Positions 39,511 through 41,331 of a DNA stretch of 42,756 nt are shown here, in pieces (positions within the stretch are counted from its first letter, which is position 1; the number at the start of each line of letters is the position of its first letter). The position numbers and the translations under genes are program-made. Source of the DNA: a virus; IMG/VR virus record IMGVR_UViG_3300009130_000058, positions 1 to 42,756 of that record; one strand, written 5' to 3'. Below the pieces are notes generated by a model, which saw nothing but the letters and a program-made list of their open reading frames with translations, had not been told where the DNA came from and searched no databases.

Positions 39511-40536
39511 TTAAGCTGTTATTGTCAACTCCGCCTGCTTTACGACTGGTTTTGTGAACCTATCCGTAGTTGTCAGCAAGTTCAACGCCCTGCGCTTGAA
39601 TCGATCCATTTGACCACCTGGAGTACTAAGACTACCAATCCGATTCTGGATATATTCATGATTCTTATTCTCAATAGCGTTAGCCATTCGAGTTGCATGC
39701 TGATGATGATCAACATATTCAGTCACCGCATTAAATGCATCCCAGCGTGACTTACCAAGATTACCAGCACCGCGTGAGAACAACGCTGCAATGTCGTTGT
39801 GCCTGTTAACGGTACGCTCATCTTCATCATCCTTCATTGGATACAACTCACCGAGAAAGTTGTACAACTCTTCCTTAGAAATTGCCTTACTGTCAAGCTT
39901 AGCAAAATCAGTGTACATGTTCTTGAGACTATTAATATTCTTTGCGAAGATTTCCTTAACTACATCCAATCGCTTCTCCCAATTAGAAAAATGCTGGATT
40001 CGATAATCACGTGTAGACTCTTTAGTCATAGCTACAAACTGATTGTTACATGCACTTCGTGTTGATGTCGGAAAAATACAATTTGAAATAATCCCGTCAT
40101 GACCAAGTAACATGGTAAGCATAGAATTAATCTTATCACCCTTCCGATTAGGAATCTCGAAAGTATAATCCTTCGGCAATTGAGCTTGTACCCAGACTCG
40201 ACTACCTCCGCGCATAACACCAGCAGCCTTATAATCTGCTCCGTACATTTTACGAACTTCGTCAAATGCATCAATTAATTCATGATTCTGAATTGGGGTG
40301 TACTTCTTACCAGTAACTGCATAAACTTGACCGGTCTTATTATTACGCAATCCGTAAAACCTATCGAAATTATCATCGTTTGTGGCTTTTCCTAGATTGA
40401 CCTGCTCTACCTCAAAATCTAGACCAGCTTTATTATAAAGCTCATCTTTACTCGAGATCTGATGAACACCCTCAACCGCAATTGCCGAATGTTCGTTAAT
40501 GTCTTGTAATGCTACGTTTCTGTCGTTAACTCTCAT
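39511..40536 (-). CDS. DUF932 (phage/plasmid-like TIGR03299) protein
   Basis: A 341-aa protein of a family common in phages, plasmids and near replication or defence loci; biochemical function is unknown. Family blocks are QVYAVTGKKYTPIQNHELIDAF-type (about 69-90), MRGGSRVWVQAQLP (108-121), MLTMLLGHDGIISNCIFPTSTRSACNNQ-type (139-166) and the C-terminal SRWDAFNAVTEYVDHHQ (263-279). It is full length. Its base composition looks richer in G/C third positions than the neighbouring structural genes. It sits behind a sigma70-like promoter rather than a late box, and a hairpin follows the stop, so it appears to be an independently controlled early or middle gene. Confidence 0.85.
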   Translation of the reverse strand: MRVNDRNVALQDINEHSAIAVEGVHQISSKDELYNKAGLDFEVEQVNLGKATNDDNFDRFYGLRNNKTGQVYAVTGKKYTPIQNHELIDAFDEVRKMYGADYKAAGVMRGGSRVWVQAQLPKDYTFEIPNRKGDKINSMLTMLLGHDGIISNCIFPTSTRSACNNQFVAMTKESTRDYRIQHFSNWEKRLDVVKEIFAKNINSLKNMYTDFAKLDSKAISKEELYNFLGELYPMKDDEDERTVNRHNDIAALFSRGAGNLGKSRWDAFNAVTEYVDHHQHATRMANAIENKNHEYIQNRIGSLSTPGGQMDRFKRRALNLLTTTDRFTKPVVKQAELTITA

Positions 40537-40545
40537 AACTCAATT

Positions 40546-40574
40546 ATTATAGACTGTTTTTATTGTTTAATCAA
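40546..40574 (-). promoter_or_regulatory. Sigma70-like promoter for the DUF932 gene
   Basis: The minus strand has TTGATT (40574-40569), a 17-base spacer and a perfect TATAAT (40551-40546). The expected start site falls two to four bases before the ATG at 40536, giving a nearly leaderless mRNA. Confidence 0.65.
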
Positions 40575-40685
40575 CTACTTTTTCCTTCTGGAAACCCGTT
40601 GTTTAGTCACAGTCACGGTCTTACGTGTCTTGACGCCTTTTCGGGTACGTTCCCAAACTCGTTGTTTTTTAATTTTTGCTGCCAT
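40575..40685 (-). CDS. 36-aa highly basic peptide
   Basis: A small ORF starting MAAKIKKQRVWERTRKGVK and ending SRRKK. About 40% of residues are Lys or Arg and none is acidic except one Glu. It overlaps the preceding 38-aa ORF by 17 bases and ends one base before the -35 of the DUF932 promoter. The composition fits nucleic-acid binding. It is supported by compact packing and the shared leader of the three-ORF set, but a chance ORF cannot be excluded. Confidence 0.5.
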   Translation of the reverse strand: MAAKIKKQRVWERTRKGVKTRKTVTVTKQRVSRRKK

Positions 40686-40785
40686 TATATTTCTTTTTAC
40701 GGTTATATGACCCCTTACCTTTTTTTGGAGTATGTACTCTGGTTCCTGTATTGAACCTTATTATGACTCTTGGTTTTTTCATCAT
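40669..40785 (-). CDS. 38-aa basic peptide
   Basis: Starts MMKKPRVIIRFNTGTRVHTP, then a Lys/Arg/Tyr-rich tail (KKGKGSYNRKKKYNGSKN). It overlaps the 45-aa ORF by 71 bases in another frame and the 36-aa ORF by 17. A GGGTATGGG stretch just upstream might bind ribosomes. Overlap this deep means either real dual coding or that only one of the two frames is used. Confidence 0.4.
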   Translation of the reverse strand: MMKKPRVIIRFNTGTRVHTPKKGKGSYNRKKKYNGSKN

Positions 40786-40852
40786 CCCATACCCTTATCC
40801 GGTATCCTTTACTCTTCTGTTTAATTTGCATTCGTACTGCCATAACAGACAT
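40715..40852 (-). CDS. 45-aa basic peptide, first of three overlapping tiny ORFs
   Basis: Starts MSVMAVRMQIKQKSKGYRIR, continues VWDDEKTKSHNK and ends YSKKR. It has an upstream late box CATAAATA nine bases before the ATG (40852); a second in-frame ATG is at 40843. It fills part of the 342-base gap between the DUF932 and nuclease-like genes. The promoter gives it better support than its two overlapping neighbours. Family unknown. Confidence 0.6.
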   Translation of the reverse strand: MSVMAVRMQIKQKSKGYRIRVWDDEKTKSHNKVQYRNQSTYSKKR

Positions 40853-40861
40853 TATTATAGG

Positions 40862-40869
40862 TATTTATG
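40862..40869 (-). promoter_or_regulatory. Late-promoter box for the tiny basic ORFs
   Basis: The minus strand reads CATAAATA (one mismatch from TATAAATA), nine bases before the ATG at 40852. Confidence 0.55.
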
Positions 40870-40878
40870 ATAAATCAG

Positions 40879-41331
40879 TCAAGCTTTCTGTTTCGGATAC
40901 ACTTGATGCTCTAAAAGTAACTTAGTATTACTTATTTTTTGTCTATCGTATTTATTGTATGTACCGCTCCAATGAAATTCTGATCCGCAAAAATCTCCAC
41001 GAGCATACCACACATCATGAGGCACTCTAAATGCCATGTCATGTAAACCGTCGATAATAGTCATGTAATCAAATAATCCTTTTTTATTATAATTGCATTT
41101 ATGTATTCTTAAATAACCAACTGGCATTATATAATTAGTATATTTTATCTCATATTTTTTACCGTTTATAATACCGTCATAACCATTAGAATTAGTAAAT
41201 TCTCCACCAAGTAATTTAAAGAATTGCTTTTCAATTAATAAACCTTGTAGTTTATTATCATTGGTTATCGCATCTGTTAAGTCTCTCGGCTCTTGGAGAG
41301 CTCGCTTAATTATATCAACGCTTTTAAACAT
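40879..41331 (-). CDS. Putative PD-(D/E)XK nuclease-like protein
   Basis: A 150-aa protein with the layout of a small restriction-endonuclease fold: an N-terminal helix with Glu (GLLIEKQFFKLLGG, E34), then NGYDGIINGKKYEIKYT, giving D52 and E61-x-K63 as the PD-(D/E)XK-like catalytic set. Strands YLRIHKCN and LFDYMTIIDG follow. It could cut or bind DNA (host genome degradation, recombination, or a modification-dependent nuclease). The motif alone is suggestive, not conclusive. No late box precedes it; a sigma70-like promoter lies about 50 bases upstream. Confidence 0.55.
   Translation of the reverse strand: MFKSVDIIKRALQEPRDLTDAITNDNKLQGLLIEKQFFKLLGGEFTNSNGYDGIINGKKYEIKYTNYIMPVGYLRIHKCNYNKKGLFDYMTIIDGLHDMAFRVPHDVWYARGDFCGSEFHWSGTYNKYDRQKISNTKLLLEHQVYPKQKA

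Follow-up and report, generated by a model that had tools for sequence, protein, structure and literature searches.

The question raised by this locus is whether three tiny, overlapping reading frames rich in lysine and arginine are genes at all and, if they are, what such a compact set might do for a phage. The window, by which we mean the whole stretch of 42,756 nucleotides that was analysed, is by its sequence part of a T4-like phage; its terminase is about 37% identical to cyanophage terminases, and a search of the window for tRNA and tmRNA genes found none. The first-pass annotation had described staggered ORFs of 45, 38 and 36 codons, successive ones sharing 71 and 17 bases, within a 342-base gap, and we can confirm this layout on the minus strand. 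The gap (40537-40878) is flanked by a 150-aa gene and by the downstream DUF932 gene (39511..40536, minus strand), whose 341-aa product matches Pfam DUF932 with 121 bits. ORF1 (40852-40715 as the full-length call, 45 aa, K+R 29%) overlaps ORF2 (40785-40669, called with 38 aa, 37-38 codons, K+R 34%) by 71 bases. ORF3 (40685-40575, 36 aa, K+R 44%, MAAKIKKQRVWERTRKGVKTRKTVTVTKQRVSRRKK) starts inside the end of ORF2 and shares 17 bases with it.

One explanation would be that the three frames are open by chance, in a gap so rich in A that composition favours lysine and arginine. The gap strand is 44% A, and ORFs from shuffled versions already contain 23% K+R on average, with 18% of them reaching 28%. 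The basic bias, which had been taken as unexpected for three random frames, is therefore partly compositional, although the 29-44% of the real ORFs lies above the shuffled mean. Three such ORFs on the same strand were found in 0 of 2000 dinucleotide shuffles of the gap.

A further argument comes from relatives. None of the three peptides had a tblastn match among 50,697 phage records, and relatives were fetched via the flanking DUF932 gene and alignments rather than with single short peptides. The DUF932 query led to 11 viral contigs, eight of which carry ORF1 and ORF2, and together with the window these represent six distinct alleles. In ORF2 the pairwise differences per site are 0.156, 0.117 and 0.375 at the first, second and third codon position, a coding pattern. 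The 19 codons of ORF1 that follow its start and lie outside the overlap contain no stop in the six alleles (P ~0.01 from column shuffles, a rough value, as are all our selection P values, given a small sample of six distinct related alleles), and the other two frames carry 11 and 12 stops in this region. The same part of ORF1 is conserved as a protein, with a BLOSUM score of 2.27 against 1.05 in column shuffles and 0 of 3000 shuffles as high. For ORF3, comparison with contig L001 gives 2 amino-acid-changing and 12 silent codon differences and comparison with L097 gives 4 and 14, a pattern of strong purifying selection. Within the overlap, the ORF1 frame is open in every allele that has ORF1, and it contains stops in 17 of 19 ORF2 relatives that lack ORF1. 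The first-pass annotation had also considered that a single frame might be conserved with stops in the others; in the relatives all three frames are conserved. ORF1, ORF2 and ORF3 all behave as genes, the proposed compact set of small basic proteins is upheld by frames that stay open with protein-level conservation, and chance is practically excluded.

The relatives also show that the set is not fixed. Contig L008 has lost both ORF1 and ORF2 and kept the DUF932 promoter, from which we see that the two are dispensable. In L097, ORF1 is missing, ORF2 stands alone with the cassette promoter element directly preceding it (MKRPTTLRRRVQFNTGTRVHRPKKGPGSYIRKKK...), and the overlap of ORF3 with the end of ORF2 is retained. 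On this arrangement, ORF2 is a complete gene on its own and ORF1 a separable element, probably a later addition. L097 bears on another possibility, that ORF1 and ORF2 are parts of a single protein made by +1 frameshifting. Both lie on the same strand in a +1 relation and there is an A-rich run, ATGAAAAAACC, at the ORF2 start; against this, ORF2 of L097 has an ATG of its own and no ORF1 before it, the start in other phage relatives falls at the same position, and L005 and L009 interrupt the A-run by a 6-base insertion with both frames kept. We consider the fusion very improbable and rejected it because of the independent ORF2 in L097.

True dual coding had been suggested for the overlaps, and the codon-substitution analysis of the ORF1/ORF2 overlap gives a divided answer. 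A stretch of 62-71 bases does serve two proteins, though amino-acid constraint is seen there for ORF2 only. The ORF2 wobble sites, which are first positions of ORF1 codons, differ by 0.375 per site, compared with 0.360 at DUF932 third positions. Since these sites are as variable as DUF932 third positions, the ORF1 tail in the overlap shows no amino-acid constraint and seems tolerated, not selected, apart from its open frame. With the ORF2 amino acids fixed and synonymous codons drawn at random, the probability of an open ORF1 frame is 0.02-0.24 per allele. By these comparisons this is a genuine overlap of two conserved frames in which ORF2 appears to dominate selection. For ORF1 this raises the question whether it is a regulatory leader that counts through its translation and not its product, with ribosomes loaded at the near-leaderless ORF1 start occluding or opening that of ORF2. 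The 62-71-base overlap and the unconstrained tail would fit such a role, as would the promoter-driven ORF2 of L097 without any ORF1, but the part of ORF1 outside the overlap is conserved as a protein and is predicted to form a beta-hairpin. We regard the leader function as a tentative possibility that is compatible with the function we propose for ORF2 below.

The cassette has a promoter of its own. A near-consensus sigma70-like element lies on the minus strand at 40854..40882, with TTGACT (40882-40877), a 17-base spacer containing CATAAATAC, and TATAAT (40859-40854), and it is retained in L001-L007 and L009. It ends about 10 bases ahead of the conserved ORF1 start, which is the second methionine at 40843; the first ATG shares bases with the end of the -10 region and is missing from L003, L004, L005 and L009. 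From the conserved start ORF1 has 42 codons (40843-40715, MAVRMQIKQKSKGYRIRVWDDE...). A second sigma70-like promoter, TTGATT-N17-TATAAT, lies at 40546..40574 on the minus strand, 15 bases ahead of the DUF932 start. From the promoter-to-ATG spacing, predicted transcripts would start 3-4 bases ahead of the ATG, which would leave ORF1 and DUF932 nearly leaderless. The late box that had been reported ahead of the ORFs is present as ATAAATA, 26 bases ahead of the conserved ORF1 start, but it sits inside the 17-base promoter spacer, a position unlike that of the usual late-like boxes of this phage. Its core is retained in relatives, and therefore dual early and late use may be possible. Elsewhere in the window, between 5780 and 40536, a box like TAAATAAT is found about 10-15 bases ahead of many gene starts and is probably the late promoter motif of the phage.

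The most informative of the three products is ORF2, (M)MKKPRVIIRFNTGTRVHTPKKGKGSYNRKKKYNGSKN. Its tail, TRVHTPKKGKGSYNRKK, matches that part of ArfA, a ribosome-rescue factor, which lies in the mRNA tunnel. Against Pfam ArfA (PF03889) ORF2 scores 27.8 bits (also 25.8) with a cut-off of 25.5 and an E-value of 1.7e-6, and a whole-record search makes it the sole ArfA match in the window. Above the cut-off, ArfA was found in one of 14 control genomes, E. coli. In eight of nine related phage contigs the match occurs once per genome and in the same place; the close ORF2 relatives score below the Pfam cut-off, at 19.7-23.0 bits. An NCBIfam search on this locus returned no match. The ArfA-matching part (40687..40743, minus strand) corresponds to ArfA positions 25-43 of 44, in the mRNA-tunnel region. 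ArfA residues 31-48 fill the mRNA tunnel (eLife 2017, PMC5378476), and ORF2, which ends at about ArfA position 50, has this whole segment together with the R28-V29 pair. Its alignment begins at the Q27-R28 equivalents, and the N-terminus before them is KPRVIIRFNTG. In ArfA, the strand that is added to RF2 is formed by residues 27-30; F25 touches RF2, and opening of RF2 is the work of the N-terminal part (PMC8012679, PMC5378476). For this RF2-activating region (helix 15-24; A18, P23, F25) the ORF2 alignments contain no counterpart, and an AlphaFold model of ORF2 alone is disordered and of low confidence, with no helix.

It could be argued that ORF2 is a generic basic RNA- or DNA-binding takeover peptide and that its KKGKGSY match to ArfA is convergence. 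The match spans 17-22 residues only, the composition favours lysine and arginine, and prohead-core-like proteins from other T4-like phages have the motif too. These proteins (L043 2695-3315 and L047 2767-3219, also in L053, L055 and L058) contain an internal FAPATKVExPKKGKGSYxRK with 25.4 bits to Pfam ArfA, and they sit between a prohead-protease-like gene and scaffold-like and major-capsid-like genes, these neighbours being named from sequence. Because of this similar motif, KPKKGKGSY by itself is no proof of rescue. Profile searches nevertheless point to ArfA specifically. A profile of 21 family members, run against 177,635 PDB sequences, retrieves ArfA chains only at significant E-values (0.001; next 3.2), and Pfam assigns ten diverse members to ArfA. 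A six-allele profile also retrieves PDB ArfA; designed repeat proteins score with it too, on a repeated weak FNTG-like stretch, and these matches were not reproduced with the 21-member profile. In addition, TRVHTPKKGKGSYNRK is identical to TRVEKPKKGKGSYQRK of Vibrio ArfA at 13 of 16 residues. An hhalign comparison of the ORF2 profile with a Vibrio, Shewanella and phage ArfA set gave 97.5% over 22 columns, which is supporting and not independent evidence, the set having been partly gathered by motif. We think convergence is unlikely. Nucleic-acid binding, as proposed in the first-pass annotation, thus receives support for ORF2 in a specific form, as the best match is an rRNA-binding segment.

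ORF2 belongs to a larger phage family. Scanning with the ORF2 profile found 53 viral loci; roughly 20 different short proteins among them follow the pattern K-P-R-x2-I-x-[WF]-N-T-G-x-R-x-H-x-P-K-K-G-K-G-S-Y-x-R. In the 21-sequence alignment (A4) R, N, G, P, GKGSY and R are invariant, and ORF2 of the window conforms. Among the cellular genomes scanned, this WNTG form was found in one Verrucomicrobiota MAG only; Vibrio and Shewanella matches were discarded as ordinary ArfA and an archaeal MAG match because it sits within a long protein. In five relatives (L026, L030, L033, L037 and L042), which perhaps represent two lineages, a strong hairpin with a T-run lies within the ORF, closely behind the motif. 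These five intrinsic terminators compare with a mean of 0.35 and a maximum of 3 in mononucleotide shuffles of 38 regions. The arfA gene is regulated in this way, internal termination giving a non-stop message that is held in check by tmRNA (PMC8012679), and brfA of Bacillus subtilis has the same internal-terminator regulation (PMC6881298). An internal terminator is absent in the window ORF2 allele and its closest relatives, and therefore we see no sign of tmRNA-controlled expression in the sequence of this ORF2. In L026 (1423-3138) a DUF932-like gene, judged by eye, lies about 0.6 kb upstream of the terminator-bearing mini-ArfA, and the DUF932 neighbourhood may thus recur in a second phage.

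We further considered that ORF2 might be an ArfA-tail decoy, plugging idle or stalled ribosomes and thereby damping host translation or competing with rescue. This would account for a conserved tunnel segment in a protein without the ArfA N-terminal helix. It would not account for the internal terminators in relatives, a form of autoregulation that one would expect in a back-up rescue factor and not in an inhibitor, nor for the strong conservation of KPRxxIx[WF]NTG across 21 phage sequences, as expected of a partner-binding surface. Moreover, BrfA performs RF2-dependent rescue with an unrelated N-terminus and a basic tail in the mRNA tunnel (PMC6881298), so that a rescue role of ORF2 is plausible despite its different N-terminus. 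We judge the decoy improbable, and the host-inhibiting peptides of the first-pass annotation are not borne out; ribosome rescue is the better reading. With moderate confidence we propose that ORF2 is a phage-encoded mini-ArfA, a putative non-stop ribosome-rescue factor of 37-38 residues. Since the defining N-terminal feature is absent, we do not file it as ArfA but call it ArfA-like, and it most likely works like ArfA.

How such a protein would act can be outlined, and we infer tunnel binding, release-factor recruitment, timing and initiation modes alike. Expression of the small cassette, ORF2 included, would be driven by a sigma70-type promoter of its own. ORF1 would be translated first from its near-leaderless start and ORF2 by internal initiation within ORF1, with ORF3 translation probably coupled to the ORF2 stop. 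Once a ribosome has reached the 3' end of a broken message and stalls there, the basic tail of ORF2 (RVxxPKKGKGSYxRKK) would enter its empty mRNA tunnel, while the short N-terminal strand (KPRxxIxFNTG) in the A site might recruit or activate a host release factor. The nascent chain would be freed and the ribosome returned to phage translation. In infected cells, where mRNA is degraded and ribosomes pile up on truncated messages, a phage rescue factor is plausible as a means of keeping ribosomes free.

The two companions of ORF2 are less easily placed. ORF1 is modelled by AlphaFold with strands at residues 2-10 and 13-21 and a mean pLDDT of about 75 over residues 1-20, a prediction made from six sequences. 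With moderate confidence we describe it as a predicted beta-hairpin followed by a disordered basic tail, the tail being the overprinted part. A PDB search with ORF1 found no match, and ORF1 seems confined to this phage group, since a scan for the promoter-plus-start pattern gave known loci and apparent chance matches only. ORF3 is found in four contigs, the window, L001, L002 and L097, and has no known relative outside these homologues. Because both share the cassette with ORF2, our guess is that ORF1 and ORF3 are accessory small proteins that share the target of ORF2, the ribosome, or tune ORF2.

If the rescue function is true, a 37-residue version with a different N-terminus would show how little is needed to trigger release independent of a stop codon, and a large number of phage mini-ORFs, most of them without annotation, would become testable. 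ORF1 and ORF2 also provide a clean case of overprinting, with L097 as the partner-free relative. In the sequences and literature searched, both the family of WNTG-type mini forms and the overlap of ORF2 with ORF1 look new. It is conceivable, if doubtful, that the WNTG type forms a separate phage-specialised class of release-factor-dependent rescue, combining an ArfA tail with a new N-terminal activator and, in this phage group, overprinted by an ORF1 that regulates it or cooperates with it.

Small basic ORFs clustered densely behind a sigma70-type promoter are familiar from T4-like phages. What sets this cluster apart is that two conserved frames overlap by 71 bases and that one of the products belongs to an identifiable family. 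Compared with ArfA, ORF2 is likewise small and basic with a C-terminal RVxxxKKGKGSYxRK segment, a likeness of sequence, and some of its phage relatives have the intrinsic terminator inside the ORF as in arfA. It differs in its length of 37-38 aa versus 55-72, in having KPRxxIx[WF]NTG in place of the helix 15-24 (A18, P23, F25), and in the terminator-free ORF of the window. The likeness to BrfA is by mode of working: the BrfA tail shares little with ArfA beyond a KH motif, whereas the ORF2 tail is without KH and the low-confidence ORF2 model has no inter-subunit helix.

Phage-encoded ArfA itself is already known, named in a few annotations and one transcriptome; in the literature searched we found no functional test of it. 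Unannotated ArfA-like ORFs are seen in Pseudomonas phage pf16 (L102 ~1001-1070) and Caulobacter phage Cr30 (11148-11237), and a clear ArfA-like protein of Salmonella phage Arash (L104 890-1114) is annotated as 'ribosomal protein L2'. In Roseobacter phage CRP-212 (L101 ~1001-1135) an annotated gene of 3.6 kb holds an ArfA-type ORF (MRQKNPVAKILRTPRYRQRKVMPKKGKGSYKRNTKHRKETT) in its 3' part, apparently in a different frame; this is a possible second overprinted phage arfA. In Pelagibacter phage HTVC027P, gp30 has been described as an ArfA with early and late expression (PMC12753301), and annotated copies exist in Citromicrobium phage RXM and Brevundimonas phage Kikimora (36 aa). Like ORF2, these three are phage-encoded and short and have the same tail motif, but they keep the ArfA-type N-terminus (NPxA..L..TPxYRxR), whereas ORF2 is of the WNTG type and is overprinted with ORF1.
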